Assembly (NCBI RefSeq): GCF_010977555.1
Contig: NZ_CP048815.1
Location: forward strand, 3,278,501 to 3,342,500
DNA length: 64,000 bases
Reading direction: 5' to 3'
Source: Caulobacter rhizosphaerae
GTDB taxonomy: Bacteria > Pseudomonadota > Alphaproteobacteria > Caulobacterales > Caulobacteraceae
Part shown: one piece after another, positions 47,594-63,323 of the stretch
How positions within the stretch are numbered: the first letter of the stretch is position 1
How the letters are laid out: each line of letters begins with the position of its first letter
Notes under the pieces: generated by a model
Seen by the model: only the letters and a program-made list of their open reading frames with translations
Database searches by the model: none
Told to the model about the DNA's origin: nothing
Made by a program: the position numbers and the translations under genes

Positions 47594-48003
47594 CGAATTT
47601 TATTCAATAATTTCCACGCCAATCCCACATGAGGATTTGGACCGACAGAAAGCCAACCGAAGGATTTCAAGGGGTTATCCGATTTTCGCGCGTAAAAATA
47701 CGCTCAAAACCGCCGCTCACTGTACATGCGACGGGTTCGATCACGTACAGCATTTATGCGTTTTCTGATCCGGCATAGGGACGCTCCGCGGGATCGAAAC
47801 GCCTGACGCGCTTCGACGCCGCGCCTCGGCCGCCTCGTTTCCCAACAGCCAACAGTCAGCTGGGGCGTTCGCCCACGGCTTCACGAGGATCCCGGTCGGA
47901 GGGGGTGTCGCCCCCCCCAACTGGGGCTTGCCATCCAGGCCCGGAAGAGCAGCAAGTGTCGGCAGCCTTGGGCGCTGGAGCCCGGAGAGCCGCGGAACCT
48001 GTC
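47594..48003. other. Intergenic region before the propeller kinase
   Basis: About 410 bp between divergent dusA and the kinase, with no gene seen. It includes an inverted repeat at 47720-47750 that resembles an operator, and a tract with several poly-purine/pyrimidine palindromes near 47880-47920. A 5' extension of the kinase ORF covers its right end. Confidence 0.5.
47720..47750. promoter_or_regulatory. CTGTACATG-N13-CACGTACAG operator-like inverted repeat
   Basis: Nine-base arms at 47720-47728 and 47742-47750, complementary at eight of nine positions. It lies between dusA and the propeller kinase, 254 bp before the kinase GTG. It could control either gene; the regulator is unknown. Confidence 0.4.
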
Positions 48004-51000
48004 GTGCGATTGATCAAGGCCGTCCTCATTGCGACGATGCTGTTGCACACCTCCGCGGCGTCCGCCGCCGAGCCGGTGCGTCGCCTGGCCCACTACACCC
48101 ATCAGCGATGGACCGAAGAGGGCGAGGCTCCCGCCCCCGTGCTCGCCATGGACCAGGGCCGCGACGGCTATCTCTGGCTCGCGACGGGCGTAGGTCTTTT
48201 CCGATTCGACGGGATCAACTTCGAGCCGATCGACATCGAGCCCGGCCAGGGGCGGCAGGATCCGCCGAGCGCCGTGCTGGCGGCGCGCAACGGGGACATC
48301 TGGACCAGCCTCGGCGAGACACACCGCTTCGCCGTCTATCGCGACGGCGCCTTGCGCGCCTCGGCCCTGCCCGCCGCGCCCAATCGGGTCGTGGCGATGG
48401 CCGAGGGGAAGGACGGCGCGATCTGGGCCCTCACCGCCCGGTTCGACGCCGAACTGCTGCGACTTCGCGGCCATCGGTGGCGCGCCTTCAACGCCGCCCA
48501 AGGCCTGCCGCGCGACGACGCTCTCAGCTTGCTGGTGGCGGCTGACGGCGCGGTCTGGGTGTCGCTCAGCAATTCGGTCGCGCGCCTGCCGCCCGGCGCA
48601 GAGCGGTTCGAAGTCGTGCGCAGGACGCCGCGCGCCAATGGAATGCTGTCGCAGGACCCCCTTGGGCGCGTCTGGCTGTCGGCGCGAACCGGCAGCTATC
48701 CCCTCACCGGCCCGGGTGGGCATGGCCCGCCCCCTGCCGGCCCGCCCTATCGCACCGACGACGCCCAGATCCGTGGCGCGCCTCGGTTCGATCGCGCAGG
48801 AAACCTCTGGATCGCGACACGCTACGGCGGCGTGCAACGGGTCGCGGCGGCGGGCGCCTTCGGACGCTCGAGCCGCTTGATCGAAACCCTTGGCGATCGC
48901 GATGGCCTGTCCTCGGACCTGACCAATCAAGTCTTCGAGGACCGCGAGGGCAACATCTGGATCGGCTCGGAAAAGGGCTTGGACAAGCTGCGTCCGGCGA
49001 CGCTCCGGTCCGAGCCTTTGCTGAACCATCCTGCCGCCTTCGGCGACAAGCTGCTCTCGGCGTCCGACGGCAGCGTGTATGTCGGGGAGGCCGACACGAT
49101 CTACCGGATCGCGCCGGACGGCGCCCCGAAGCCCATACTGCGTGGCGTCCGCGAACCGCAGAGCCTCTGCGAGGCGCCGGACGGCGCGGTCTGGATCGCC
49201 TTCGCCACGCGCGTCGTGGTGTGGAAGGACGGTCGAACGCTCCGGACATTCAACCGCCCCGACACCGACAGCATCATCTATGACTGCGCGTTCGACAGGC
49301 GCGGCGACTTCTGGATTTCCGCCGCCGCGGGCGGACTGCTGCGCCATCACCAAGGGCGCTGGGAAGCGATGTTCGCTCAAGCCGACGGCGAGCGGTTTCA
49401 CCCGATGACCATGGTTCGGGACGCCGACGGACGGCTGGTGCTGCAATGGGCGCTGCGCCGCCTGGCCTGGGTGGACTATCCCACCCGCACGTTCCAGGGC
49501 CTGGACCTCGGCCGCGACGCCACCGCCGTGACCCTCTATCCTGCCGCGAACGGCGATGTCCTGGCCGCGGGCGACTTCGGACTGTCGCGGTTTCGCGATG
49601 GACGGGTCGACACGATACGGGCCGGCGCGCTGCGCGGTCGGATCAGCGGGGTGGTCCAGACGCCGCAGGGCGACACCTGGCTAGCCTATCCCAGGGCCCT
49701 GGTTCGGCTCGGCGCCCAGGACCTTGAGCGCGCCTTCGCCCGCCACGCCTTTTCTCCCCCCGACCTCTCGCTGGGCTTTGGCGACGGCCTGACCAGCCGC
49801 CCCCACTCGCACACCCAGCGCGCGCTGGTCCAAGGCGGCGACGGGCGGATCTGGGTCGCGACCGAGACCGGAACCCTGTGGATGGATCCTCGACACATCG
49901 TTCGCACGCATCTTCCGCCCGATGTCTCGATCCGGTCGCTGGCCGCGGGCGACCACCTCTATCGGGACCCCGCAGACCTCAGGCTCAAGAAGGCGACGTC
50001 CAGCCTTGAGATCGACTACGCGGTGCTCAGCTTCGCCGATCCCCGTCAGGTCAGCGTCCGCTATAAGCTCGAAGGCTTCGATCGCGACTGGGTCGATCCA
50101 GGCGCGCGACGGCAGGCGTTCTACACCAATCTCAAGCCCGGCAAGTACCGCTTCCACGTGATCGCGGCCAGCAACGAGGGCGTCTGGAACCGGACCGGCG
50201 CGGCGGTCGCGTTCGACATCCCGCCGACCTTCCTGCAGTCGCGCTGGTTTTTGGCCCTGTGCATCGGCTTGACCCTGGCGCTGCTCTGGCTGTTCTACCG
50301 GCTCCGCCTGGCCCAGCTGGAGCAGCGTATCCATGTCGGCCACGAGGCGCGGCTCAGCGAGCGCGAGCGGATCGCGCGAGAACTGCACGACACGCTGCTG
50401 CAAAGCGTCCAGGGCCTGGTGCTGCGGTTCCAGTCGGTGGCCAACAAGATGCCGCCGGGCGACCAGTCCCGAGACCTGCTGGAATCTGCGCTCAAGCGTG
50501 CGGACGACGTCATCGTCGATGGCCGCAACCGGGTGCGCGACCTGAGGATGGCCGAAAGTCCCGGCGACCTCCCCGCGATCCTGGAAGAACGGGGGGCCGC
50601 GGCGGGGTTCGATCCGCCCATCCCCATCCACATCATCACCGAGGGCGTCGCGCGCACCGTGCATCCGCTGGTCGCCGCCGAGATCGGCCGCGTCGCGGGC
50701 GAGGCGCTGTTCAACATCGCACGCCACGCCAAGGCCCAGTCGGTCGAGGTCTCGATCGGCTTCACCGACCATCAGCTGAGCGTCCGGATCCGCGACGACG
50801 GCGTGGGCATCCCGCAAGAGGTCGTGGTCAAGGGCCACAAGCCCGGCCACTTCGGCCTCGTGGGCATGCGCGAGCGCGCCCAGCGGATCGGCGGCGCCCT
50901 GTCGATCGAGAGCCGGCCGGGCGCCGGCGCCGAGATCACCCTGAAACTACCCGCGCGACTGGCCTATGCCGACAAGGCTCCCGCGCGGTCGCGCCTGTCC

Positions 51001-51039
51001 AACTTCCTTCGTCGTTTTGGGAGAGCCCCCGTTGCCTGA
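48004..51039 (+). CDS. Beta-propeller sensor histidine kinase (Reg_prop/YYY/HisKA_3)
   Basis: About 1011 residues. A signal peptide (RLIKAVLIATMLLHTSAASA) leads to a large periplasmic domain of about 14 propeller repeats with GYLWLATGVGLFRFDG and NIWIGSEKGLDKLRP motifs. A Y_Y_Y-type domain (about 655-735), one transmembrane helix (about 745-767) and a HisKA_3 dimerisation domain follow, with ERIARELHDTLLQSVQGL (phospho-acceptor His795). The HATPase_c domain has VGMRERAQRIGG. It is of the type that senses sugars or exported ligands. It is coupled to the regulator at 51032. The GTG start is inferred from the signal peptide. Confidence 0.88.
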   Translation: MRLIKAVLIATMLLHTSAASAAEPVRRLAHYTHQRWTEEGEAPAPVLAMDQGRDGYLWLATGVGLFRFDGINFEPIDIEPGQGRQDPPSAVLAARNGDIWTSLGETHRFAVYRDGALRASALPAAPNRVVAMAEGKDGAIWALTARFDAELLRLRGHRWRAFNAAQGLPRDDALSLLVAADGAVWVSLSNSVARLPPGAERFEVVRRTPRANGMLSQDPLGRVWLSARTGSYPLTGPGGHGPPPAGPPYRTDDAQIRGAPRFDRAGNLWIATRYGGVQRVAAAGAFGRSSRLIETLGDRDGLSSDLTNQVFEDREGNIWIGSEKGLDKLRPATLRSEPLLNHPAAFGDKLLSASDGSVYVGEADTIYRIAPDGAPKPILRGVREPQSLCEAPDGAVWIAFATRVVVWKDGRTLRTFNRPDTDSIIYDCAFDRRGDFWISAAAGGLLRHHQGRWEAMFAQADGERFHPMTMVRDADGRLVLQWALRRLAWVDYPTRTFQGLDLGRDATAVTLYPAANGDVLAAGDFGLSRFRDGRVDTIRAGALRGRISGVVQTPQGDTWLAYPRALVRLGAQDLERAFARHAFSPPDLSLGFGDGLTSRPHSHTQRALVQGGDGRIWVATETGTLWMDPRHIVRTHLPPDVSIRSLAAGDHLYRDPADLRLKKATSSLEIDYAVLSFADPRQVSVRYKLEGFDRDWVDPGARRQAFYTNLKPGKYRFHVIAASNEGVWNRTGAAVAFDIPPTFLQSRWFLALCIGLTLALLWLFYRLRLAQLEQRIHVGHEARLSERERIARELHDTLLQSVQGLVLRFQSVANKMPPGDQSRDLLESALKRADDVIVDGRNRVRDLRMAESPGDLPAILEERGAAAGFDPPIPIHIITEGVARTVHPLVAAEIGRVAGEALFNIARHAKAQSVEVSIGFTDHQLSVRIRDDGVGIPQEVVVKGHKPGHFGLVGMRERAQRIGGALSIESRPGAGAEITLKLPARLAYADKAPARSRLSNFLRRFGRAPVA

Positions 51040-51667
51040 GTCCAGTTCGCGTCCCATCCGCATCCTCGTGGTCGATGATCACCCGATCCTTCGCGAGGGC
51101 GTCGCCGCGATTCTGGAGGATCGCGACGATATGCTGCTGGTCGGCGAGGCGCGTGACGGCGTCGAGGCCATCGTCCAGTTCCGCGACCTGCGGCCTGACG
51201 TGACCCTGATGGACCTGCAGATGCCGGGCATGGGCGGGGTCGAGGCGATCAAGGCGATCCGCGCGGAACATCCCACCGCCTGCATCGTCGTGCTGACCAC
51301 CTATGACGGCGACGTGCAGGCTGTCCGCGCGCTGAAGGCCGGCGCCATGGGCTACCTGCTGAAAAGCAGCCTGCGCACCGAGATGCTCGACGCGATCCAC
51401 AGCGTCAGTCAGGGCCGCCGCTATCTGCATCGCAACATCGCCGACGAGATCGCCATGCACATCCTCGAAGACGGCCTCAGCGAGCGCGAAGTGACGGTTC
51501 TGCAGCTTGTCGCCGTCGGCAAGGCCAACAAGGAAATCGCCCGCGATCTGGGCATCTCCGAGGAGACGGTGAAGGGCTATCTGAAGGGCGTCTTCACCAA
51601 GCTCGGCGTGTCCGACCGCACCCACGCCGTCACGGTCGCAGCGCGCCGCGGGATCATCGAGCTCTGA
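51032..51667 (+). CDS. NarL/LuxR-type response regulator
   Basis: 211 residues. The receiver domain has the acidic pair Asp15-Asp16 and phospho-acceptor Asp61 (LMDLQMPG), and the output domain is a LuxR-type HTH (LSEREVTVLQLVAVGKANKEI, ISEETVKGYLKGVFTKLGV). The TTG at 51032 follows GGGAGAGCC and overlaps the last codons of the kinase gene, so translation is coupled. It is the partner of the propeller kinase; targets are unknown. Confidence 0.9.
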   Translation: MPESSSRPIRILVVDDHPILREGVAAILEDRDDMLLVGEARDGVEAIVQFRDLRPDVTLMDLQMPGMGGVEAIKAIRAEHPTACIVVLTTYDGDVQAVRALKAGAMGYLLKSSLRTEMLDAIHSVSQGRRYLHRNIADEIAMHILEDGLSEREVTVLQLVAVGKANKEIARDLGISEETVKGYLKGVFTKLGVSDRTHAVTVAARRGIIEL

Positions 51668-51671
51668 GAAG

Positions 51672-51707
51672 GCCACATCGGGCGGCGATCGCGCCGCCCG
51701 ATGTGGC
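51672..51707. terminator. Bidirectional hairpin terminator
   Basis: Perfect 16-bp stem (GCCACATCGGGCGGCG / CGCCGCCCGATGTGGC) with a 4-nt loop. It begins 5 bp after the regulator stop and reaches the stop codon of the convergent gene. There is no T-run, so termination is inferred from structure and position. Confidence 0.65.
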
Positions 51708-52579
51708 TAGGGGCGTCTGCCCAGCCAGGCCGCGATGTTCAGGACGTAGCGGTGAGTGTCGGCCAGAGCCCCGGGCTCGCGCGCCATTCCGTGGCCAGGA
51801 ACCTCGGAGACGAAGGTCGGACATCCGCGCGAGAGGTCCCAGTTGTAGTCGGCGAAGTGGTGGAAGGTGCTTTCGGCAATCGCCGGCCCGCCGTGTCCGT
51901 CACGCTCGAAGGCGACGGCGAGGTTGAAGTCGCGGCCTGTGGCCTGGCTGCGCCCCGTCATGATCGCGCGGGCGCCGCCAGGAGCGGCCACGGCGCCCTC
52001 GTGCGGGTGGGCGGGCAAGTAGCGCAGGACGCCGGTCGGCGAGGCGGGATCGATCAGCACCGGATGAACGGGCTCGATCGGCCGGATCAGCTGATAGTCG
52101 CCATTGGCTCCCGACCGATAATTCGGCCAGGAAATGGCCTGGGTCTCCTCGTCGTCGCGGACGTGCCGGCCCGGATCGGCCTCAGGATTGCGGCTGTGGA
52201 AATGATGCGCCGCGCCGACGCCGCCCAGGGTGCAGACCGACGAGCCCAGGTCCATGTGGTCGCGGGTGACCAGCATGCCGCCGCCGGCCTGGCGGAAGCG
52301 GGAGACTCCTTCGCAGTCCTGCTCGGTCAGCCCGTCGCCGACATCGACGGCCAGCAGCCAGAGTTGGTCGAAGTCGCTCTCGTCCAGGCGCGACAGCACC
52401 GGATCGGGCGCGCCGAGCGGACCACGGTCGCGCGCCTCCACGGTGTAGAGAGGCCTTCCCTCGGCGTCGACCGCGCCGGCCAGCAGTTGATGCAGCAAGC
52501 CAAAGCGCGCGATCGACCAGTCGTCGTCGGTCGGCGGAATGGTGGTCTGCAGAAGTATCCGGGTCGCGCCGTCACGCAT
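51707..52579 (-). CDS. Class I glutamine-amidotransferase-like (ThuA-like) protein
   Basis: 290 residues. The start is ATRILLQTTIPPTDDDWSI; the centre has GGGMLVTRDHMDLGSSVCTLGG, VGAAHHFHSRNPEADPGRHV and EGAVAAPGGARAIMTGRS. The C-terminal FHHFADYNWDLSRGCPTF is a recurrent motif of uncharacterised proteins in this superfamily. No catalytic Cys-His-Glu triad was confidently identified. It follows a truncated flavoprotein fragment whose stop codon overlaps its start region. Confidence 0.6.
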   Translation of the reverse strand: MRDGATRILLQTTIPPTDDDWSIARFGLLHQLLAGAVDAEGRPLYTVEARDRGPLGAPDPVLSRLDESDFDQLWLLAVDVGDGLTEQDCEGVSRFRQAGGGMLVTRDHMDLGSSVCTLGGVGAAHHFHSRNPEADPGRHVRDDEETQAISWPNYRSGANGDYQLIRPIEPVHPVLIDPASPTGVLRYLPAHPHEGAVAAPGGARAIMTGRSQATGRDFNLAVAFERDGHGGPAIAESTFHHFADYNWDLSRGCPTFVSEVPGHGMAREPGALADTHRYVLNIAAWLGRRP

Positions 52580-52765: not shown

Positions 52766-53545
52766 TCAGCGCGCCGAAGCGGCTTCCTCGATCAGGGCGA
52801 CGATCTCGCCGGGATGCGACACCATCAGGGCGTGCGAGCCGCCCTCGACGGCGACAGTCTTACGGGCCTTGGCGCGGTCGGCCATGAACCGCTCGGCCTC
52901 CGCCGGAATGTTGCGGTCGGCGGTTCCATAGATCACGTACGACGGCAACTGCTTCCAGGTCGGCGCCGTCGCCATGTCGGACAACGCCCGTCCCGTCACC
53001 GGGCGCTGGGTCGCGGCCATGAGAGCCGCCGTCGCGGCCGGCGCGTCCGCGGCGAATTGCGCGTGGAACTTGGCGGGTTGGATGTAAAAATCCTCGTCGC
53101 CGTCCTGCAGCACGACCGGGGCCAGCGCGTGGGCCAGCGTGCTGCCCGGGAACTTTCCCGACAGCGAGAGCGCCGATTCACCAGCGTCCGGCAGGAAACC
53201 CGCGACATAGACCAAGGCGACGACATTGCCCTGACCCTTCGCGGCCTCGGTAATCACCTCGCCGCCGTAGGAGTGGCCCACCAGAACCACCGATCCGCCG
53301 ATGGACCTGATCAGCGCTGAAAGGGACTCTGCGTCGGATTTCAAAGCCCTTAGTGGATTGGCGGCGGCGACCACCGGATAGCCGTCCTGGCTGAGCTTCG
53401 CGACCACGCCGTTCCAGCCCGAAGCGTCTGCGAAGGCGCCGTGTACCAGAACGATGGTCGGCTTGGCGGCAGGCTCGGCCGACTGGGCGACGCTCGCCGT
53501 CGCCAGCGCCGCGGTCAGGCCCATGATCTTGAGCAGAGTGCGCAT
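52766..53545 (-). CDS. Secreted alpha/beta hydrolase
   Basis: 259 residues. A signal peptide (LLKIMGLTAALATASVAQSA) precedes the hydrolase domain: IVLVHGAFADASGWNGVV (oxyanion region), VVLVGHSYGGEVITEAA with nucleophile Ser92, VIYGTADRNIP (acid) and GGSHALMVSHP (His). The family includes EstC/hydroxynitrile-lyase-like enzymes that act on small esters. The ATG at 53545 follows GGAG; the longer ORF to 53617 adds a non-signal leader. Confidence 0.88.
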   Translation of the reverse strand: MRTLLKIMGLTAALATASVAQSAEPAAKPTIVLVHGAFADASGWNGVVAKLSQDGYPVVAAANPLRALKSDAESLSALIRSIGGSVVLVGHSYGGEVITEAAKGQGNVVALVYVAGFLPDAGESALSLSGKFPGSTLAHALAPVVLQDGDEDFYIQPAKFHAQFAADAPAATAALMAATQRPVTGRALSDMATAPTWKQLPSYVIYGTADRNIPAEAERFMADRAKARKTVAVEGGSHALMVSHPGEIVALIEEAASAR

Positions 53546-53917
53546 CGATATCTCCGTGGGTTCCGGGGAGGCGTCCCGTCGACCACACGATGCGCCATCT
53601 CCGTCGGGGCCGCCCATCCCGCGGAAGGGCTTGGCCGCCCCCTCCCAAGGTCTAGGTCCCCCGGGGTTCGAGCCAAGTTCGGAGCAGGATCATGCCGCCC
53701 TCCATCGCCCCGCCGTCCTTCACGCTTCCGCCCGCCCAGGCTCCAAGGGCGCGGCTCTTCTCCGACCTTAGGCGGCGCTCGACCGGATCCTAGCCGCAGG
53801 TATGGGGTCGCTCCGTCCTTCCGCCAGATCGATCGCCCGCGCCGCCCTCCGTAACGTCCTCTCCATCGCTCACCGTCCGAGGGTCGTTGAGCCGGAACAC
53901 AACGACGGAAGGCCGCC
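53546..53917. other. Intergenic region between hydrolase and AraC regulator
   Basis: About 370 bp between divergent genes with no real gene seen. It contains the two-block promoter element at 53795-53834 and has purine/pyrimidine-rich stretches. Confidence 0.5.
53795..53834 (+). promoter_or_regulatory. Shared two-block element, site A (AraC gene)
   Basis: Block 1 CGCAGGTATGGG, then CCTTCCGCCAGATCGATC beginning exactly 22 nt after the start of block 1. It lies 84 bp before the ATG of the AraC-type gene. It matches three other sites in the window (58247, 58954, 62849). Confidence 0.6.
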
Positions 53918-54490
53918 ATGCCGCCAGGGACCGACTCCACCGAGACCGTCAACGGGCGCTCGTCCAGCCTGGCCGGACTGCTGGCCGACGCCCTGGGCGA
54001 TCTCGCGCCGGAGCAGATCAGCGCCCGCGCCAAGATCGCCGCCGCGCTGTGGATGGTCGGCGGCGAACAGGCGCTTACGGCCCACACCGGCGGCTTCGCG
54101 CCCTGGCTGGTCAAGCGGCTAAGGGCGCATATCGAGACCAATATCGAAACGCCCCTGCGCCTCGAAGACGTCGCGGGCCTGGCGCGCGTTAGCCGCAGCC
54201 ATTTCTCGCGAGCGTTCAAGAAGACCTTCGGCGAGCCCTTCTCGCGCTATGTCATGGGCGTGCGGTTGGAACGGGCCCGGCGACTGCTGATCGACACCAA
54301 CCAATCGATCAGCGAGATCGCCCTGGCCTGCGGTCTCAGCGACCAGTCTCACCTGACCCGCCTGTTCCATCGCCGCTACGGCGCTCCGCCCCGCGCCTGG
54401 CGGCGCGTGCACGGCTGGCCGGTCGCCAGCGCCGCGGAGCAGCCGCTCGGGTTCAGGCGGCCGGGGGATCAAGCGGCAGCGCGATCGTGA
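53918..54490 (+). CDS. AraC-family transcriptional regulator
   Basis: 190 residues. The C-terminal two-HTH AraC domain starts near residue 68 (RLRAHIETNIETPLRLEDVAG), continues through SRSHFSRAFKKTFGEPFSRYV and LERARRLLIDTNQSISEIALA, and ends ACGLSDQSHLTRLFHRRYGA. The N-terminal domain is short and lacks a recognised ligand cupin. The gene end overlaps the convergent PAS kinase by 38 bp. A shared two-block promoter element lies 84 bp upstream. Confidence 0.9.
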   Translation: MPPGTDSTETVNGRSSSLAGLLADALGDLAPEQISARAKIAAALWMVGGEQALTAHTGGFAPWLVKRLRAHIETNIETPLRLEDVAGLARVSRSHFSRAFKKTFGEPFSRYVMGVRLERARRLLIDTNQSISEIALACGLSDQSHLTRLFHRRYGAPPRAWRRVHGWPVASAAEQPLGFRRPGDQAAARS

Positions 54491-56450
54491 AGATCGCCCC
54501 GCCGGCGTCGTGATTGGCCGCCGAGATCGCCCCGCCATGCTCGGTGATGATCGACTGGCAGATGGCCAGGCCGATGCCGATGCCGCCGTCCTTGGTGGTG
54601 AAGAACCCATCGAAGACGCTGGCCAGGTGCTCGGCGGCGATGCCCGGTCCGGTGTCGTGGATCGAAATCGTCACGCCGCCCGGAACCGGCGCCGCAGCCA
54701 GCCGGATCTCGCGGCGGTCGAGACCGTGGTGGTCGATGGCCTGGAGACTGTTGATCAGCAGGTTGACCACCACCTGCTGCAACTGGATCCGGTCGCCGTG
54801 AATGGCCGGGAGATCCCGATCCAGGGCCAGGCTTATGGTGATGGCCTTGGCTTCGATCTCGTGGCGCACGATCATCACGGCTTCCTCGATGGTCGCGCGC
54901 AAATCCAGCCGCGCATGCCGCGGCTGGCGCTTCATGGCCATTCCGCGCACCCGCTCGATGATCTCGCTGGCGCGGCCGGCGCTGGCGGCGATCCGTTCGG
55001 TCAGCATGCGAACCTTTTCGAGATTGGGCGGGTTCTGGGCTAGCCAGCGCAGGCTCGTGTCGGCGTTGGTGGCGATCGCCGAGAGCGGCTGATTGACCTC
55101 GTGCGCGATCGAGGCCGCCAGTTCCCCCAGGGTCGACAGGCGCGCCGCGTGGGCGAAGTTGGCCTGCAGGCGACGGAGCTCGCCCTCGGTCCACAGCCGT
55201 TCAGTGACGTCCTCGATGGTGATGAACGTGGTGTCCATGTACTCGGGCGGCGCGGGATAGGTCACCGAGAACACCACATCCAGAACCCGTCCGTCGAACG
55301 TGGCCATCTTGGCCTGTTCTACATAGTTGCGGCGGCCCTCGAAGTGGGCCTCCATCACCCGGTTGGCCATTTTCGGCGTGGCCGAGAACAGATAGCGCAC
55401 CGACTGGATGAGCTCCGCGGCGTTGCGCGCCCCGAACAGTCGGACGGCGGCCTGGTTGACCTCGGTCACCACGACGACGTCCTTGGCCAGTTCGACCAAT
55501 TCAGGGTGGTCGTCCAGAAAGTTGGCGATGTCGGTGACCCCCTGGGCCCGCAGCTTCTGAAACTCGTCGCCGGAGCGGCGGGAGTCGACATAGAGCAGCG
55601 GCGTGGGTGCGAAATGGATCAGCTTGCGGTAGCGGTCCTCGCTGGCCTGAAGCTCCCAGGCCGTGCGGTCGTCGCTGACTGCGCCGTTGACCATCAGGAA
55701 CACCGCCTCGGCGCGGCCCGGCTCGGCCGACCGCCAGGCGGTCGCGGTCGCCCCGGCCAGCACGCCGTACAGTCCCAGCACCTGGACAAGGGGCGAGCCG
55801 ACTGGCCGCTCGAGGGCGGCGGCCAGCAGCCCCGCTATGGCCTCCCGGCTCTCGGCCGGCCAGAAGTCGCCCAAGGGGCGCCCGATCGTCCGGTCGCGCT
55901 CGGCCGAACCCCCGAACAGTCGAACTGCGCGCACGTTGGCGTCGATGATCCGACAGTCGCCGAGCAGCGCGCCGCCGTCGGCCCCGGCGGCGCGAGCGGC
56001 GCGGGTCCCGACCACGTCCAGTTCCCAGCAGGCCGCGATCGTCCGCCGCAGCTCTGTCGGTCCGTCCAGGCCGCTCAGATGCGGACGCGAACGCGCCGCC
56101 TGTCCGTACTCGACCACGTCCCTCAACGAGCCGTCGGCGTTGCGCCTCAGGGTGCGACGCACGTGGGCGGCAACGGCGGGACCGGCCGCCCCGCTGCGGC
56201 GGATGTCGCCCTCCCAGGCGCCCTCGCGCAGCAACAGCGCCCATTCCTCGTCATGGAGCTGGGCGTCGGAAGCCAGTTCGCGCAGGTCCAGACCCACCAT
56301 CGCCATGGCCGGCCAGCCGTAAAGACTCTCGGCCGCCGGGTTCCAGTAGCGGACGACGCCCGCAGGGTCGGTGACGACGACGGCCTCCATCGCGAGATCG
56401 GCCAGGTCACCGCAATCCCCTCGCCCCAAGGTGCGAAACAGCACGGTCAT
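54453..56450 (-). CDS. Soluble PAS-domain sensor histidine kinase
   Basis: 665 residues with no transmembrane helix or signal peptide. An N-terminal PAS domain (MEAVVVTDPAGVVRYWNPAAE) is followed by a second sensory region, a third PAS-like region (VTEVNQAAVRLFGARNAAEL) and a HisKA domain with LGELAASIAHEVNQPLSAI (His450). The HATPase_c domain has VVNLLINSLQAIDH, ISIHDTGPGIAAEHL and DGGIGIGLAICQSI. HEVNQPL kinases usually partner FixJ-type regulators; one is encoded at 57519. Ligand is unknown. Confidence 0.9.
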   Translation of the reverse strand: MTVLFRTLGRGDCGDLADLAMEAVVVTDPAGVVRYWNPAAESLYGWPAMAMVGLDLRELASDAQLHDEEWALLLREGAWEGDIRRSGAAGPAVAAHVRRTLRRNADGSLRDVVEYGQAARSRPHLSGLDGPTELRRTIAACWELDVVGTRAARAAGADGGALLGDCRIIDANVRAVRLFGGSAERDRTIGRPLGDFWPAESREAIAGLLAAALERPVGSPLVQVLGLYGVLAGATATAWRSAEPGRAEAVFLMVNGAVSDDRTAWELQASEDRYRKLIHFAPTPLLYVDSRRSGDEFQKLRAQGVTDIANFLDDHPELVELAKDVVVVTEVNQAAVRLFGARNAAELIQSVRYLFSATPKMANRVMEAHFEGRRNYVEQAKMATFDGRVLDVVFSVTYPAPPEYMDTTFITIEDVTERLWTEGELRRLQANFAHAARLSTLGELAASIAHEVNQPLSAIATNADTSLRWLAQNPPNLEKVRMLTERIAASAGRASEIIERVRGMAMKRQPRHARLDLRATIEEAVMIVRHEIEAKAITISLALDRDLPAIHGDRIQLQQVVVNLLINSLQAIDHHGLDRREIRLAAAPVPGGVTISIHDTGPGIAAEHLASVFDGFFTTKDGGIGIGLAICQSIITEHGGAISAANHDAGGAIFTIALPLDPPAA

Positions 56451-56901
56451 GACCGGCGCGCTCCGGTCGTGGCGGCAAGGCAGCGGCGTCGGGACTTCGT
56501 CATGATCCCGACATTACCGCGGTCGATCGCCCCGACCCTCACACGTTCGGGCCGGTCCGCTCCCCCCTCTTCCGCGTCAATGAAGACGGCCGGGGGTTTA
56601 CCTCGCCCCCTCGTTTCCGCAGGCCCGACCATCGCCCTGGCTACCTATCCTTTGGTCTGGGGGCCATAGCGCCTTCTTGGGTGGCGGCCGGGAATTTCGG
56701 GGCCGCGGACGCCGCCCGCGGTTCGCCCACCGCATAGTTTCGGCCCCCCGACCCTGCGGCGACACTCCTGTCGAGCCGTGTCAATCGGACGCGGCAGGGA
56801 TGGCGAACGCGAGATTTTTTCCGATTTCATCTCGCGACCAACGAAGCGGTAGGCGAGCGCCCAACCTGTCCGGCTCAACCCGAAACGAGGCGATCAGGCG
56901 A
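56451..56901. other. Intergenic region
   Basis: About 450 bp between the divergent kinase and DUF427 genes. No gene is convincing: short ORFs lack family features and ribosome-binding sites. It contains GC palindromes around 56690-56760 and must hold the promoters of both genes. Confidence 0.45.
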
Positions 56902-56949
56902 ATGAAGCTTCGGCTCGCGCTTGATCGTCAGACCCCACAGGTGGACCCC

Positions 56950-57357
56950 ATGATCACTTCCGAAACGGACCAAACCCCACGCATCCGCGGCGGCGTCCGC
57001 GCCCGCGCGCTGTTCGAAGGCCACGACATTGCCGACAGCCAGGACGTGGTCGTCGTGGAAGAGGCGGGCCATGCGCCGGCCTACTACTTCCCGCGTCACG
57101 ATGTGTTCATGGTCTTCCTGCGCCAGACCGACAAGGTCACGCGCAACCCCGACAAGGGCGACGCCCGCCATTTCATGATCTATCGGGACCAGCATATCGT
57201 CGACGACCTGGCCTGGTCCTACGAGACCCCGCGTTCGGCCTTCGCCGCCATCGCCGGCCGCATCGCCTTCCATCCCGCCCACGTCGACTTCCAGATCGAC
57301 GGGCAGCCGGCCGCATGGACCGGGGAAGACGACGACCCGGAGGTCGCGGCCGGCTGA
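56950..57357 (+). CDS. DUF427-family protein
   Basis: About 135 residues from the ATG at 56950, which follows AGGTGG; an in-frame ATG at 56902 is also possible. The DUF427 domain (small beta-barrel) is shown by VRARALFEGHDIADSQDVVVV, YYFPRHDVFMVFLRQTDK and HFMIYRDQHIVDDLAWSYETP. The family is widespread with no established function. It lies between the PAS kinase and the FixJ-type regulator and may be read with the latter. Confidence 0.85.
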   Translation: MITSETDQTPRIRGGVRARALFEGHDIADSQDVVVVEEAGHAPAYYFPRHDVFMVFLRQTDKVTRNPDKGDARHFMIYRDQHIVDDLAWSYETPRSAFAAIAGRIAFHPAHVDFQIDGQPAAWTGEDDDPEVAAG

Positions 57358-57518
57358 TTTGGGGGGCCGCGCCATGCCCTGTTCGGGTCTGGCCGCCCCA
57401 CGGCGCGGGGCTCATAACGCGGACGAACCAGGGCCGGGTCATGACAAACCTTCCCGCCGAAGACTGCCCTCGCAAGTGCGTCGCCAGCCTCGGCGCGACC
57501 GCGCTCAGGAGGCTTTCG

Positions 57519-58217
57519 ATGACTGAACCCCTACCCCTCGCGCGGGACGAGCGCGGTTTCGCCGGACTGTCCGCCAAGGTTCAGGCCGAGGCCAAACCGC
57601 TGGTCATCGTGGTCGATGACGACGAAGCGGTGCGGCTTTCGATCTGCGAGCTGCTGGAGTCGGTCGGCATCGACTCCGCGGCTTTTGGTTCCACCCGCGA
57701 GCTGCTCGAGGCGGATGTGCTGCATCGACCCGGCTGCATGATCCTGGACGTGCGCATGCCGGGCCTGAGCGGGCTGGACTTCCAGAGCCAGCTGGCCGCC
57801 CAGGGCATCCCGACGTCGATCATCTTCCTGACCGGTCACGGCGACATACCGATGACGGTCCAGGCGATGAAGGCCGGGGCCATCGAGTTCCTGACCAAGC
57901 CCGCCCGCGACCAGACCCTGCTGGACGCCGTCAACCGCGCCATCGCCGCCGACCAGGCCAAGCGCGGCGACGCCCAGACGGCGCGGGAGAACGCCACGCT
58001 CTACCAGAGCCTGACGCCACGCGAACGCCAGGTCATGCGCTCGGTGGTCCAAGGCGCGCTGAACAAGCAGATCGCCTATGAACTCGGCATCACGGAAGTG
58101 ACGGTCAAGCTGCACCGTAGCAGCCTGATGAAGAAGATGCGCACCCCCTTCGTCACCCATCTGGTGCGCGCCTGGCAGTCCCTGCCCGCGCCCCTTCGAG
58201 ACGAATTGCCCGTCTAG
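57519..58217 (+). CDS. FixJ/NodW-type response regulator
   Basis: 232 residues. Receiver domain with the acidic triplet VVDDDEAVRL, phospho-acceptor Asp77 in CMILDVRMPGLSGLD and the Lys motif FLTKPARDQ. The LuxR-type HTH has TPRERQVMRSVVQGALNKQIA and ITEVTVKLHRSSLMKKM, characteristic of FixJ-like regulators. The ATG at 57519 follows AGGAGG by 7 bp. It is the likely partner of the PAS kinase and a candidate regulator of the shared two-block promoters. Confidence 0.92.
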   Translation: MTEPLPLARDERGFAGLSAKVQAEAKPLVIVVDDDEAVRLSICELLESVGIDSAAFGSTRELLEADVLHRPGCMILDVRMPGLSGLDFQSQLAAQGIPTSIIFLTGHGDIPMTVQAMKAGAIEFLTKPARDQTLLDAVNRAIAADQAKRGDAQTARENATLYQSLTPRERQVMRSVVQGALNKQIAYELGITEVTVKLHRSSLMKKMRTPFVTHLVRAWQSLPAPLRDELPV

Positions 58218-58246
58218 GCCGAGCATCGACGATGGCGACGCCTGTA

Positions 58247-58286
58247 CGCGGGTATGGGGCGCCCTGGGCCTTTGGCCAAATCGCTC
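58247..58286 (+). promoter_or_regulatory. Shared two-block element, site B (GST gene)
   Basis: CGCGGGTATGGG at 58247 and CCTTTGGCCAAATCGCTC from 58269, spacing 22 nt. It lies 54 bp before the GST ATG. Confidence 0.6.
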
Positions 58287-58340
58287 CGGATCGGCTCGGC
58301 GCGTAGCGTCTCCAGCACACCCATCGCCCGGAGATCCCGC

Positions 58341-58931
58341 ATGAAACTCTACTACGCCATCGGCGCCTGCAGCCTCGCCGACAAGATCGCCCTGGCCGAG
58401 GCCGGCATTCCCTGCGACTTCGAACGCGTCGAGCTGCATACGCGGACCACCGAGACCGGGGCGGACTACGCGGCCATCAATCCCAAGGGCTACGTGCCGG
58501 CGCTGGTGCTCGACGGCGGCGAGATGATCACCGAGAACATCGCCATCCTGTCCTGGGTCGCCGAGCAGTCGCCAACCCTTCGTCCCGACGGCCCGTTGGG
58601 CTGGTTCCGACTGCTGGAGTCGCTGGCCTACATCTCGACCGAGGTCCACAAGAGCTTCCATACCTTCTTCATTCCGGATGTGACCGAGGAGGCCAAGGAG
58701 CAGGCTCGCGCCCTGGCGACCCTGCGGCTGGACTACCTGGCGGCCAGTCTCGGCGACGCCTACCTGCTGGGCCCGAAACTGACCGTCGCCGACCCGTACC
58801 TGTTCGTGATCATGACCTGGGCCAAGCCCAACGGCGTCGTCCTGCCCGCGCCCCTGGCGGCCTACTACGAGCGGATGAAGGCCCGCCCCGCGGTCGCCGC
58901 GGCGCTCGCCAGCGAAGGCTTGCAGGTCTGA
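58341..58931 (+). CDS. Glutathione S-transferase
   Basis: 196 residues. The thioredoxin-like N-terminal domain reads MKLYYAIGACSLADKIALAE with the typical SLADKIALxE turn, INPKGYVPALVLDGGEMITE and NIAILSWVAEQSP; the helical C-terminal domain is LGDAYLLGPKLTVADPYLFV. Glutathione conjugation or peroxide/isomerase activity is possible. The ATG at 58341 follows GGAG; the longer ORF from 58254 overlaps the shared two-block promoter element and is rejected. Confidence 0.9.
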   Translation: MKLYYAIGACSLADKIALAEAGIPCDFERVELHTRTTETGADYAAINPKGYVPALVLDGGEMITENIAILSWVAEQSPTLRPDGPLGWFRLLESLAYISTEVHKSFHTFFIPDVTEEAKEQARALATLRLDYLAASLGDAYLLGPKLTVADPYLFVIMTWAKPNGVVLPAPLAAYYERMKARPAVAAALASEGLQV

Positions 58932-58953
58932 CCATCGGCGGGCGGCGCCTATG

Positions 58954-58993
58954 CGCCGGTATAGGTCCCGCACGCCCTTTCACCCAATCGATC
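58954..58993 (+). promoter_or_regulatory. Shared two-block element, site C (NmrA-like gene pair)
   Basis: CGCCGGTATAGG at 58954 and CCTTTCACCCAATCGATC from 58976, spacing 22 nt. It lies 76 bp before the ATG of the first NmrA-like gene. Confidence 0.6.
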
Positions 58994-59069
58994 CCATCCA
59001 GGTTCGCGCCCTAGGTTTTCCGTTCAGGCCGAGCCGCCAGAGTCGGGCGCCGGAGACGGAGGTGTTGAG

Positions 59070-59864
59070 ATGAAGATCGTGGTGGTTGGCGGGAGCGGAC
59101 GGATTGGCGAAAAGCTGGTCTACAATCTTCGCCAGGACGACTATCGCGTCCTTGAGGCCTCGCCCTCGTTCGGCGTGAACACGATCACGCGGGAAGGCCT
59201 CGATCGGGCGCTCGACGGCGCAACCGTCGTGGTCGACGTCACCCAGTCGCCGACGCTGGACGGCCCAGGGGCGCTGGCTTTCTTCGAGGCCTCGGGGCGC
59301 AACCTGCTGGCCGCCGGAAAAGCCGCGGGCGTGCGCCACCACATCGCGCTGTCGATCGTCGGCACAGACCGCTTGCAGGCCAGCGGCTATTTCCAGGCCA
59401 AGAAGATCCAGGAAGACCTGATCAAGGCTTCCGGCCTGCCCTTCTCGATCCTGCGCTCGACCCAGTTCTTCGAATTCATCAGCGGCGTCGTGCAGGACGG
59501 CACGGACCGCGACATCGTCATCTCGCCCGCCCGCGTGCAGCCGATCGCCGCCGAGGACGTGGCCGAGACCCTGGCCGATCTGGCCCTGGGCTCGCCGATC
59601 AACGGCGCCGTCGAGGTTGCGGGGCCCGAACGCTTCCGGCTCGACGCCCTGGCCGCGGAGGTCCTCACCGCCTTGGAGGATCCCCGCCAGGTCCAGCCAG
59701 ATCCGGCCGTTCCCTATTTCGGCGCCCGGCTGGACGAGGCCTCCCTGCTGCCCGGCGCGACCGCCCGCATCGCGCCCACCCGCTTCCATGATTGGCTGAG
59801 CGCCAGCCTGCAGGCTCCGCCGATCGCCCCCCGAACCATGCGCGGGCAAGGATATGCACCATGA
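59070..59864 (+). CDS. NmrA-like NAD(P)-binding protein, copy 1
   Basis: 264 residues. The Rossmann start is MKIVVVGGSGRIGEKLVYNL, with GGSGRIG as the dinucleotide loop. A conserved core follows, including VVVDVTQSPTLDGPGALAFF, ALSIVGTDRLQASGYFQAK and FSILRSTQFFEFI. The three copies in this window align over the full length. Atypical extended-SDR enzymes of this type often reduce small carbonyls or act as redox sensors. It shares a 4-bp overlap (ATGA) with the next gene. Confidence 0.85.
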   Translation: MKIVVVGGSGRIGEKLVYNLRQDDYRVLEASPSFGVNTITREGLDRALDGATVVVDVTQSPTLDGPGALAFFEASGRNLLAAGKAAGVRHHIALSIVGTDRLQASGYFQAKKIQEDLIKASGLPFSILRSTQFFEFISGVVQDGTDRDIVISPARVQPIAAEDVAETLADLALGSPINGAVEVAGPERFRLDALAAEVLTALEDPRQVQPDPAVPYFGARLDEASLLPGATARIAPTRFHDWLSASLQAPPIAPRTMRGQGYAP

Positions 59865-60619
59865 AGATCGTCGTCGCCGGCGGGACCGGTTGTGTCGGCG
59901 CCCGGCTCGCCGAGATCCTCCGCCGCCAGGGCCATGAGGTTCTCATCGCCGCCCGCGCGTCGGGCGTGGATGTGATCACCCGCCAGGGCCTGGACGAGGT
60001 CATGGTCGGCGCCGAGGTAGTGGTCGACGTCCTCAACTCGCCGTCGTTCGATGATGCGCCGGCCATGGCGTTCTTCCAGACCTCCAGCCGCAATCTCCTG
60101 GAGGCGGCTTCCGCGGAGGGCGTACGCCACTATCTGGCGCTCTCGATCGTCGGCTGCGAGCGGCTGCAGGGCAGCGGCTACTTCAGAGCCAAGCTGGCCC
60201 AGGAGAACCTGGTCCGCGACGGCGGCGTACCCTATTCGATCCTGCGCGCGACGCAGTTCTTCGAGTTCCTTGACCGCGTCGTGGACGATGGGCTGGACGG
60301 CGACGTGGTCCGCCTGGCCCCGGCTCGCGTGCAGTTCATCGCCGCCGAGGACGTCGCCGCCGCTCTGGCCGACATCGTCGATCGCGCCCCGGCCAACGAC
60401 ACGCTCGAGGTCGCGGGTCCCGACCCGTTCCGCCTCGATGACCTGGTCCAGCGCTTTATGACCGCCCGCCAGGACGAGCGCCCGGTCGTGGCCGAACCGA
60501 CGGCGCTCTATTTCGGAACCCCGCTGGGCGACGAGACCCTGATCGCCGACGGAAATCCGCGCTTCGGCCATACCGAATTCGACCTCTGGCTGCAGCGCGC
60601 GAATAAGAGCGCGGACTGA
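59861..60619 (+). CDS. NmrA-like NAD(P)-binding protein, copy 2
   Basis: 252 residues, starting MKIVVAGGTGCVGARLAEIL. The ATG at 59861 overlaps the stop of copy 1 (ATGA), so translation is coupled. The core VVVDVLNSPSFDDAPAMAFF, ALSIVGCERLQGSGYFRAKL and YSILRATQFFEFLDRV parallels copies 1 and 3. No Tyr-x-x-x-Lys catalytic pair of classical SDRs was seen; a YFRAK motif occupies that region. It is followed by a hairpin terminator. Confidence 0.85.
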   Translation: MKIVVAGGTGCVGARLAEILRRQGHEVLIAARASGVDVITRQGLDEVMVGAEVVVDVLNSPSFDDAPAMAFFQTSSRNLLEAASAEGVRHYLALSIVGCERLQGSGYFRAKLAQENLVRDGGVPYSILRATQFFEFLDRVVDDGLDGDVVRLAPARVQFIAAEDVAAALADIVDRAPANDTLEVAGPDPFRLDDLVQRFMTARQDERPVVAEPTALYFGTPLGDETLIADGNPRFGHTEFDLWLQRANKSAD

Positions 60620-60640
60620 CGCAGGCGTCCGTAACGCAAG

Positions 60641-60668
60641 AGCGGGCGGTCCAGCCGGACCGCCCGCT
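60641..60668. terminator. Hairpin between convergent NmrA-like genes
   Basis: Perfect 12-bp stem AGCGGGCGGTCC / GGACCGCCCGCT with a 4-nt loop, lying between copies 2 and 3. Only a short T-run follows. It probably ends transcription from both directions. Confidence 0.7.
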
Positions 60669-60692
60669 TTCGCATGGCTGCAACGAAGTTGG

Positions 60693-61451
60693 TCAGGCCG
60701 CGGCCGGAACCACGTCCCTCAACCAGTCCTCGAACATGGTCCGGCCGAGAATGGGGGCCTCGCCCGGCGTCAGCGAGCGCTCCTGCAGCTTGACGCCGAA
60801 ATAGAGCGCCGCCGGATCGGCGACGACCTTGCGGGGATCGCCCTTGGCCTGCAGATAGCGGGCGACGAACCTGTCCAGGCCGAAGGCCGAGGGTCCGGCG
60901 ACCTCGACCAGCCCGTTCACCGGTTGGCCCAGCACGACGTCGGTCAAGGCGCCGGCGACATCGGGCGCGGCGATCGGCTGGACCAGGGCGGGCGACACGT
61001 GCACCTCGTCGCCGACCTGCCCCGCCTGGATGATGCCCTGGACGAACGGAAAGAACTGGGTCGAGCGCAGGATCGAATAGGGAATCGGCGAGGCCCGGAT
61101 CAGGGCTTCCTGGACGATCTTGGCCCGGAAATAACCGCTCTCCTGCAGGCGCTCGGTCCCGACGACCGACAGGGCGACATGGTGCTTGATCCCGGCCTTC
61201 CGCCCAGCGGCCAAGAGGTTGCGGCCCGAGGTGACGAAGAAATCGAGCGCCGGGCCAGCCTCGAACTGTGGCGAGTTGGCGACGTCGACCACGATGTCGG
61301 CGCCCGCGAGCGCCGCGTCCAGCCCCTCGCCCGTCAAGGTGTTGACCCCAGTGTTCGGCGCGGCGGCGATGGCCTCGTGGCCCTGGCGGGCCAAATTGGC
61401 GACGACGCTGGAACCGATCAGGCCAGTCCCGCCGATGACGACGATTTTCAT
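60693..61451 (-). CDS. NmrA-like NAD(P)-binding protein, copy 3
   Basis: 252 residues on the opposite strand to copies 1 and 2, convergent with copy 2. The start MKIVVIGGTGLIGSSVVANL is typical, and IVVDVANSPQFEAGPALDFF, ALSVVGTERLQESGYFRAKI and YSILRSTQFFPFVQGI parallel the other copies. The ATG at 61451 follows GAGGAG. It shares a divergent 300-bp region with the AhpD-like gene. Confidence 0.85.
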   Translation of the reverse strand: MKIVVIGGTGLIGSSVVANLARQGHEAIAAAPNTGVNTLTGEGLDAALAGADIVVDVANSPQFEAGPALDFFVTSGRNLLAAGRKAGIKHHVALSVVGTERLQESGYFRAKIVQEALIRASPIPYSILRSTQFFPFVQGIIQAGQVGDEVHVSPALVQPIAAPDVAGALTDVVLGQPVNGLVEVAGPSAFGLDRFVARYLQAKGDPRKVVADPAALYFGVKLQERSLTPGEAPILGRTMFEDWLRDVVPAAA

Positions 61452-61751
61452 AGCGCTTCTCCTCGAATGGATCGTCCGGGAAACATGACGCAAGCGTGCG
61501 CGGACGCACGCGAGGCGATGGATCGGCCCGGCGCCCGTCCTGGGCGCGGTGGACCTCCGCCGAGGGCGTATCGGCGCACGCCCTCACCACACCACGCCTG
61601 GACCTTGGAACAGCTTGACGACGCCTCGGCGCCAAGACCGCCCCGCGGCCCCCGTCCCAAGGGCGTGTCGGTGAGCCCTGTGCGGATGATGGCGCTCATT
61701 CCGTTCGGGCGCGCATGTTGCGGCGTCTTCACCGTCAAAGAGGAACCGACG
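61452..61751. other. Divergent region between NmrA-like copy 3 and AhpD-like gene
   Basis: 300 bp with no gene seen. It contains several inverted GC-rich segments. The two-block element of sites A-D was not found here in either orientation. Promoters for both genes are expected. Confidence 0.4.
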
Positions 61752-62219
61752 ATGACCCAGTCCCCCCGCTTCGCCCCGTTCAAGCTCGCGCCCGACGTGA
61801 CCAAGGCCATGCTCGCCGTCGAAGCCGCCCTGGGCGAGACCGGCATCGAGCGCGGCCTCGGCGAACTGGTCCGCCTGCGCGCCTCCCAGATCAACGGCTG
61901 CGCCGCCTGCATCTTCATGCATGTGCAGGACGCCCGCTCGCACGGCGAAACCGAGCTGCGCCTCCAGATGCTCAACGCGTGGCGCGAGTCTTCGCTGTTC
62001 ACCGATCGCGAACGCGCCGCCCTGGCCTGGGCCGAGTCGCTGACCCGGATCACCAAAACCCACGCGCCCGACGCCGACTACGAAGTGGTCAAGGCCCAGT
62101 TCAGCGAGGCTGAAATCGCGGCCCTGACCATCATCATCAGCCAGATCAACGCCTGGAATCGGCTGCAGATCGCCGCCCGCGCGGCCCACCCGGCCCAGCC
62201 GGCCGCCGTCGCGGCCTGA
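61752..62219 (+). CDS. AhpD-like carboxymuconolactone decarboxylase-family protein
   Basis: 155-residue all-helical protein. The AhpD-type redox motif CxxC is at Cys50 and Cys53 (QINGCAACIFMHVQDA), preceded by the ELVRLRASQINGC signature and followed by LTIIISQINAWNRLQIAAR. Such proteins are alkylhydroperoxidase or thiol-dependent peroxide-reduction partners. The ATG follows AGAGGAACCG. It may act with the GST and NAD(P)-binding proteins in oxidant defence. Confidence 0.88.
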   Translation: MTQSPRFAPFKLAPDVTKAMLAVEAALGETGIERGLGELVRLRASQINGCAACIFMHVQDARSHGETELRLQMLNAWRESSLFTDRERAALAWAESLTRITKTHAPDADYEVVKAQFSEAEIAALTIIISQINAWNRLQIAARAAHPAQPAAVAA

Positions 62220-62411
62220 CCCGACGGCCCGCAGCCGCCCGGATCGCGTCGAAGCCCCCCAATGTTCGACGCGCGAAGGCGACCGGCCTCGAAAGGGCGA
62301 CAGGTCGCCTTCGGTCGCGCCCCGGCCTCCCAGCGCGCCGGGGCGCGCCTCTTTCAACCCCCCCTCCGCGGCCGACAGGTCCCGGGGTCCTGGCGCAAGG
62401 AGATCGCCCTG

Positions 62412-62819
62412 ATGAAATATACGTGCATCGGCCTAGCCGCCCTGCTTGGCGTGCTCGCCGTGGCCAATGGCCTGTTCATGCTGTTTTCGCCCGAAGGCTG
62501 GTACTTCGCCGTGCCCGGCGTGACCACGACGGGCCCGTACAATCAGCACTTCATCCGCGACATCGGCCTGATCTTCCTGCTGATCGGCGCGGCCTATCTG
62601 ACCGGCGTCGCCCGGCCTGACCTGCGCTTGATCTTCTGGACGGGATCGACGATCTGGCTTTCGGGCCATGCCCTTTTCCATTTCTGGGAAGTGGCGGTCG
62701 GCATCTGCTCGGCCTCGGCGCTCGCCCGCGACTTCATGGCCGTCACCCTGCCCGCCATCCTCGGCTGGCTGATCACCGCCTGGGCGGCGCGACGCGGCGC
62801 CGCGAGCGCCAATCGCTGA
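62412..62819 (+). CDS. Small four-helix membrane protein
   Basis: 135 residues with four hydrophobic segments: CIGLAALLGVLAVANGLFML, IGLIFLLIGAAYLTGV, LIFWTGSTIWLSGHALFHF and FMAVTLPAILGWLITAW. The ATG at 62412 follows AAGGAG by 9 bp. Family is not recognised; the layout is similar to DoxX-like or DUF4345-type small membrane proteins. It lies after the AhpD-like gene in the same direction. Confidence 0.75.
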   Translation: MKYTCIGLAALLGVLAVANGLFMLFSPEGWYFAVPGVTTTGPYNQHFIRDIGLIFLLIGAAYLTGVARPDLRLIFWTGSTIWLSGHALFHFWEVAVGICSASALARDFMAVTLPAILGWLITAWAARRGAASANR

Positions 62820-62848
62820 GCCGCCCTCGGATCTCCTGAACGGCTAGA

Positions 62849-62887
62849 CGATCGTATAGGTAGAAAGCGGCCTCTACAGCGTCGATA
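62849..62887 (+). promoter_or_regulatory. Shared two-block element, site D (receiver-only gene)
   Basis: CGATCGTATAGG at 62849 and CCTCTACAGCGTCGATA from 62871, spacing 22 nt. This is the most diverged of the four copies. It lies 43 bp before the TTG start of the gene. Confidence 0.5.
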
Positions 62888-62930: not shown

Positions 62931-63323
62931 TTGTCCACAGCGCCTCTCTTCGCGGTCGTCGACGACGACGTGGCCATGCGGGAAGCCTTGGCCGAGTTGC
63001 TGGAAGTCTTCGATTTCGATTGCCGTACCTATGAAGGAAGCGAGAGCTTCTGGGCCGACCACGCGCCTGGCCGGTTCGCGGGCCTGATCACCGACCTGAA
63101 CCTGGTGGGGGAAAGCGGACTTCAGCTGCAGCAACGCCTGCGGCTGCTCGATCCCGCGCTGCCCGTGATCATCATCACGGCGCAGTCCGATCCCGCCACG
63201 CGCGCTCGGGTCATGGCCTCGGGGCCGATGGCCTGTCTGACCAAACCGATCGACGCCCAGGCGCTTCGCCGCCACCTGGACGACGCCCTGGCTCGCCACG
63301 CGGCGTCTCGCGACGCCGAATAG
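62931..63323 (+). CDS. Single-domain response regulator
   Basis: 130 residues, receiver only and no output domain. VVDDDVAMREALAELLEVF and phospho-acceptor Asp55 (LITDLNLVGESGL) are present, as is the Lys motif CLTKPIDAQALRR. It starts at TTG after AAAGGA. Such proteins are phosphate sinks or relay partners in FixJ-type systems. No kinase gene is adjacent; the closest is the PAS kinase at 54453. Confidence 0.85.
   Translation: MSTAPLFAVVDDDVAMREALAELLEVFDFDCRTYEGSESFWADHAPGRFAGLITDLNLVGESGLQLQQRLRLLDPALPVIIITAQSDPATRARVMASGPMACLTKPIDAQALRRHLDDALARHAASRDAE

Follow-up and report, generated by a model that had tools for sequence, protein, structure and literature searches.

A 64,000-nucleotide (nt) stretch of the Caulobacter rhizosphaerae genome (contig NZ_CP048815.1, positions 3,278,501 to 3,342,500; hereafter the window, in whose numbering coordinates are given) carries a cluster of genes around a FixJ/StyR-type response regulator. 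Several of these genes share an upstream element centred on an 18-bp inverted repeat, CCTATAC-N4-GTATAGG. On comparison with related genomes, the element probably (at about 0.8) serves as operator and promoter in a small local two-component regulon, activated by the phosphorylated dimer of the FixJ-like protein. The original prediction, made from the DNA alone, had proposed an undescribed regulon with one activator bound close to the promoter, for which the FixJ-like protein was the favoured candidate. It is supported, as the dyad fits a dimeric regulator of the NarL/FixJ type and exact matches in the genus occur only beside the ortholog of this regulator. The literature searches made, which covered open-licence papers, found no description of the cluster or of the operator.

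The inverted repeat and its promoters

Four sites had been placed at 53795, 58247, 58954 and 62849, and coordinates and sequences agree with the window DNA: CGCAGGTATGGG-N10-CCTTCCGCCAGATCGATC (A), CGCGGGTATGGG-N10-CCTTTGGCCAAATCGCTC (B), CGCCGGTATAGG-N10-CCTTTCACCCAATCGATC (C), and CGATCGTATAGG-N10-CCTCTACAGCGTCGAT (D). With the gene starts used here, they lie 123 nt (AraC), 94 nt (glutathione S-transferase, GST), 116 nt (NmrA1) and 82 nt (receiver gene) from the start codons, within the 82-123 bp given before. Comparison of same-genus regions identifies the first of the two blocks then described as the right arm of the 18-bp repeat, whose left arms had gone unnoticed: CCTAGCC (A), CCTGTAC (B), CCTATGC (C), and GCTAGAC (D). 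The second block (CCTT...ATCG) starts 10 nt past the repeat, and a CTA(G) -10-like element follows about 35 nt after CCTT. The two-block description holds for A, B, and C. At D it is reduced to the repeat, which is kept in orthologs, the CCTC...TCGAT block being unconserved there. The second block is probably better read as the -35 side of a promoter, absent as a shared feature from site D.

The compared regions are the window and seven same-genus genomes, with a FixJ ortholog of 81-84% identity in six and of 63% in one. The promoter alignments include the window, and some gene starts were set by hand from tblastn ends in both comparisons. L147 and L232 yielded no close ortholog and are therefore missing from the AraC and GST alignments. 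The sites A-E and the AraC, DUF427, fixJ, GST, NmrA1, NmrA2 and receiver genes are on the plus strand, the kinase gene on the minus strand.

The AraC-family regulator gene (target A; 53918-54490; PF12833, PF00165) is preceded by the dyad CCTAGCC-GCAG-GTATGGG (53789-53806), by the second block CCTTCCGCCAGATCGATC (53817-53834), the probable -35 side of the promoter, and by a putative -10-like element CGTAACGTC (53850-53858). The repeat, GATCGAT, and a common TA column of the -10-like element are found in 7/7 AraC promoters. The gene of the GST-like protein (target B; 58341-58931), which scores 172.6 bits with the GstA model, below the cut-off of 198, has the dyad CCTGTAC-GCGG-GTATGGG (58241-58258), recovered by pattern scans and promoter alignment, the second block CCTTTGGCCAAATCGCTC (58269-58286), and a candidate -10-like element CGTAGCGTC (58302-58310) taken from the alignment. 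The layout is common to 7/7 GST promoters, with AATC in each; two are degenerate, having a changed left arm and no CCTT.

The best conserved promoter is that of the NmrA pair (target C), formed by the genes of an NmrA1-like NAD(P)-binding protein (59070-59864, from the Pfam scan) and of an NmrA2-like protein (59861-60619), whose start overlaps the NmrA1 stop and which presumably belongs to the same unit. The dyad CCTATGC-GCCG-GTATAGG (58948-58965), the second block CCTTTCACCCAATCGATC (58976-58993), and the putative -10-like element CCTAGGTTT (59010-59018) correspond to CCT...ATAG, CCTTTC, CCAATCG and CTAG in 9/9 NmrA1 promoters, window included. The sole exact genome match of CCTRTRCNNNNGYAYAGG is site C.

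Where promoter positions were counted by hand, 35-37 nt separate the first C of CCTT from the TA of the -10-like element. Placing this TA at -12/-11 puts ATCG in the -35 region and the centre of the repeat near -67, so that at A, B, and C the repeat would be centred about 67 nt upstream of the transcription start.

Site D, the dyad GCTAGAC-GATC-GTATAGG (62843-62860), precedes the gene of a receiver-only response regulator (target D and possible feedback element; 62931-63323, TTG start, PF00072 only), the spacing between repeat and gene being similar in several genera. A further site, E, was missing from the four. It has the sequence CCTATCC-TTTG-GTCTGGG-N10-CCTT (56644-56675) and lies between the divergent kinase gene and the DUF427-fixJ unit, of which the DUF427 gene (56952-57357; PF04248, scanned as the longer open reading frame (ORF) 56677-57357) is likely the first. 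Site E precedes DUF427-fixJ in 7/8 regions (window, L141-L146), with CCTT at N10 in 7/7 of those that have it.

Association of the element with orthologs of the regulator

A pattern as common in coding DNA as upstream of genes would speak against a regulatory element. In the 5.96-Mb genome of the window, the short pattern GTATRGG-N10-CCTY is matched exactly at six places, four of them sites A-D; the other two (C1:712634 and C2:19716) lie inside long ORFs and were not taken as sites. The full 43-nt pattern CCTNNNC-N4-GNNNNGG-N10-CCTTNNNNCNNATCG has three exact matches, which are A, B, and C. Upstream positions account for 4/6 short and 3/3 full matches, and to this extent, that of exact matches in the own genome, the refuting distribution is not seen. 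Allowing one mismatch brings the short pattern to background level, with 70+61 matches, coding and non-coding taken together, against 64+79 for the reversed control. The full pattern at up to three mismatches (116 matches, site E among them, against 69 for the control) was not used for targets. The plain dyad at up to two mismatches was unspecific (155 against 105 for the reversed control), and no targets are therefore claimed outside the cluster.

In 61 same-genus genomes the full pattern gave 31 matches at up to one mismatch, 13 of them exact (in seven genomes). All 13 exact matches lie no further than about 6 kb from an ortholog of the FixJ-like gene of the cluster. Nineteen of the 31 stand beside such an ortholog, and the other 12 are to be set against 15 matches of the reversed control pattern. 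The ortholog was found at E<=1e-75 in nine genomes (G000, G002, G005, G009, G011, G019, G032, G033, and G068), and each of the nine has at least one match, at up to one mismatch, within about 8 kb of it; in G033 and G068 the match beside the ortholog has one mismatch. Exact matches were found in none of the 52 same-genus genomes without the ortholog.

Outside the genus, a weight matrix built from 28 genus sites, the five of the window included, was applied to the 300 nt upstream of homologs of cluster genes. Upstream regions of FixJ, kinase, LysR, 'pre' and NarL genes were left out, as were alignments starting past residue 20 and regions shorter than 300 nt. From a set of 80 loci, L031-L046 served for the matrix test, L031-L049 for the search bearing on rival binders, L031-L093 for the helix comparison, and L031-L060 for one further comparison. 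In L031-L046, a score of at least 8 is reached by 13/37 upstream regions and by 5.1% of 960 random windows (Mann-Whitney p 2e-5). Searched for across the class, the regulator turned up at E<=1e-65 in 7/387 genomes, own included, and in seven stretches from the six other genomes 7/16 regions score at least 8, against 70/1400 (Fisher p 8e-6); one of the stretches, L242, overlaps the earlier set, having 90% identity to L035 over 3.4 kb.

The gene of the receiver-only protein changes its place. It follows the membrane-protein gene in the window, stands directly after fixJ in L141-L146, and precedes NmrA1 in G068 (L232). At each position the repeat stands 87-89 nt upstream, with only the right arm in L143 and L144. 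A repeat 79-88 nt upstream of receiver genes is also found in Phyllobacterium (L031, L032), Sphingomonas pruni (L033), Inquilinus limosus (L038), and L034 (Inquilinus), and at 91 nt in L241 and 86 nt in L243.

Near-perfect repeats close to FixJ-type regulator or receiver genes were noticed in other clades, Massilia and Bradyrhizobium (L054 8691, L055 7897 and 8751, L062), for example CCTAAAC-N4-GTTTAGG and CCTAAGC-N4-GCTTAGG. The L062 copy lies 126 nt before its receiver gene. Their sequences suggest clade-specific operators of one design.

The FixJ-like regulator, its known relatives and rival binders

The FixJ-like protein (57441-58217), the proposed activator, has a receiver domain (PF00072, E 3.1e-25) and a GerE/LuxR-type helix-turn-helix (HTH) domain (PF00196, E 1.8e-18), and is thus a member of the NarL/FixJ family. 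The residue named Asp77 in the original prediction is counted from an alternative start, 57519. The presumed partner is a PAS histidine kinase (54453-56450, minus strand; PAS, HisKA, HATPase_c), and the pairing of a PAS kinase with a FixJ-type regulator recalls FixL/FixJ of rhizobia. Both proteins, however, fall below the curated NCBIfam cut-offs for FixJ (188.7 against 255 bits) and FixL (200.5 against 850).

The best PDB sequence match of the FixJ-like protein is 1yio (E 6.3e-52; entered as 'response regulatory protein'), the structure of StyR, followed by FixJ 5xso (E 1.5e-38). The recognition helix reads EVTVKLHRSS, against EVTVKVHRHN in 1yio, and rhizobial FixJ has PRTIEVYR where this protein has EVTVKLHR. 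By this helix the regulator is closer in sequence to StyR than to rhizobial FixJ, and across genera its clade retains EVTVKLHRS or a close variant. A receiver joined to a NarL/FixJ-type HTH with a near-identical recognition helix is likewise found in StyS/StyR and TodS/TodT/TmoT of aromatic-degrading pseudomonads. According to a 2018 paper, StyR-like regulators 'may recognize' ATAAACN4GTTTAT, and Lys175, Val176, and His179 are putative DNA contacts of StyR (PMC5874301). The repeat described here shares with such operators the N4 between the arms and the core TAnAC-N4-GTnTA. It differs from them in the outer bases, CCTATAC instead of ATAAAC, and the exact StyR/TodT operator is not present. StyR-P is reported to activate from a site at about -40, STY2 (PMC2442086), whereas the repeat here would lie near -67. 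A further difference is that the kinase has one HisKA, one HATPase_c, and no receiver match, unlike TodS with two transmitters and a receiver. No aromatic catabolic operon is seen in the cluster. Membership in the StyR/TodT group is not claimed because contact residues, exact operator, and kinase layout differ; the resemblance is at the level of dyad architecture.

In the mechanism inferred from these comparisons, the PAS kinase would phosphorylate the FixJ/StyR-type regulator, whose dimer would then bind the 18-bp inverted repeat. At the AraC, GST and NmrA promoters, the position of the repeat near -67, the weak ATCG -35, and the CTA(G) -10 in a nearly fixed register suggest that the bound regulator recruits RNA polymerase. 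The repeat before DUF427-fixJ would give positive self-amplification of fixJ, and the receiver-only protein, under a like repeat, may drain phosphate and damp the system. The predicted regulon would comprise the AraC gene, the GST gene, the NmrA pair, DUF427-fixJ, and the receiver gene. Direct results of the computation are the elements and their conservation, the gene contents, and the tie between exact matches and orthologs of the regulator.

Several observations weigh against activation by the FixJ-like protein through a common element. Of the StyR contact residues, placed on the 1yio alignment, Lys175 alone is kept, Val176 being replaced by Leu and His179 by Ser. CCTT is kept in only 3/7 AraC promoters (window, L141, L142) and 5/7 GST promoters, and the ATCG/CTA promoter part is absent from sites D and E. 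No site E was found in L147, and the NmrA3, CMD, and membrane-protein genes of the window show no site that reaches 10 of 14. The genome counts are descriptive because the pattern was built after the sites had been seen, and 12 of the 61 genus genomes fall short of 90% completeness with at most 5% contamination, which 49 reach. The majority of regions score below 8 in both matrix tests (24/37 and 9/16), and the rank test for the seven class-wide stretches is modest (Mann-Whitney p 0.008). No repeat was scored upstream of the receiver genes in L039, L044, L045, L046, L242, and L244, or of both in L245. Among receiver-only genes near FixJ-type genes, loosely defined, a repeat at shuffle p<=0.05 occurs in only 14/50, a few of which 50 possibly are FixJ-type genes with a missed HTH; these were drawn from the 80 loci and L141-L149 and kept if a GerE-type match lay no more than 2.5 kb away, but not immediately after them, and if 120 nt or more of upstream sequence was present. 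The link of element to regulator thus holds for a clade and not for the whole FixJ-type family.

Alternatives concern the sign of regulation, the identity of the binder, and the nature of the element. It is unlikely that the FixJ-like protein acts here as a repressor, as StyR-P is reported to be able to do when it also binds a second site (PMC2442086). As read from the alignments, the dyad lies upstream of the putative -35, the usual position of an activator, and the -35 match is weak.

Control by the AraC-family protein (53918-54490) in place of the FixJ-like one is quite improbable. This protein is encoded in the cluster, has a site before its own gene, and has orthologs of 56-68% identity in L141-L146. 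AraC-type sites are usually direct repeats, however, and the element is a dyad. In the G033 and G068 stretches the NmrA1 site is kept, but the C-terminal part of AraC has a match of only 41-42%. Loci of Phyllobacterium, Sphingomonas, and Inquilinus have the repeat before the receiver gene, and no AraC homolog was found in these stretches at E<=1e-8. Neither the AraC nor the NarL-type neighbour was found in the L031-L046 stretches.

The neighbouring NarL-type response regulator (50966-51667), whose partner is a beta-propeller kinase (47905-51039), is a very improbable binder. It is of the LuxR/GerE type and is found near the cluster here, in G011, and in G032, the kinase being near the cluster also in G068; it was not found, however, in the site-bearing L141-L144 and L147, nor in L031-L049, the search covering stretches of up to 19 kb and not whole genomes. 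That the element is the core promoter of an unusual sigma factor, with no operator, has just as little likelihood: the register of CCTT, ATCG and CTA is nearly fixed at A, B, C, and their orthologs, but D and E retain the dyad while lacking the ATCG/CTA part, and exact matches go with the orthologs of the regulator.

Activation by the FixJ-like protein would supply an explicit operator and a set of targets for one branch of the FixJ/StyR-type regulators, on which the searches of open-licence papers made here found no publication. The paired differences of helix and operator between StyR and this clade can be used to test how DNA is read by this HTH family, and the receiver-only protein under a like operator makes the feedback idea directly testable. 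From the family names of the NmrA-like, GST, and AhpD-like genes one might guess at the handling of electrophiles, quinones, or xenobiotics. It is a tentative and rather doubtful extension that an Alphaproteobacteria-wide clade of StyR-like regulators, marked by a recognition helix close to EVTVKLHRS, makes up a circuit for stress or xenobiotics. Its regulator would drive the regulator's own gene and, from the repeat 79-91 nt upstream, a dedicated receiver-only protein acting as phosphate sink. If so, feedback would be hard-wired with the regulon, and the operator would move with the receiver gene.

Rejected elements and neighbouring genes

The abhydrolase gene (52766-53617, minus strand) is preceded by a CCTAGACCTTnGnAGGGG-N10-CCTT-like element (53605-53660, minus strand), which has the form CCTAGAC-CTTG-GGAGGGG-N10-CCTT-like and recurs in L141, L142, L145, and L146. 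It was not counted because the right arm is poor and CCTAGACC fits the housekeeping -10 consensus, with TTGGCT upstream; judged by sequence it is probably an ordinary promoter. Another element of this kind, at G000:C1:2489471 (L198), has only a short ORF after it and was likewise rejected.

The genes at 51707-52579 and 62412-62819, conserved with the cluster, gave no Pfam match at E<=0.001, and no ring-oxygenase was present among the cluster genes scanned with Pfam. Beside the cluster, the gene of the beta-propeller histidine kinase (Reg_prop, Y_Y_Y; 47905-51039) overlaps that of the NarL-type response regulator (50966-51667).

A second copy of the FixJ-like gene, with 64% identity, was observed in G032 (L149 7597-10160), near ORFs resembling an ECF sigma factor and a FecR-like regulator. 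This copy is preceded by TCAATAC-TAAA-GTATAGG-N10-CCTT...ATCG...GCTAG. In the window, three adjacent NmrA-like paralogs occupy 59070-61493, two on the plus strand and the third on the minus strand.

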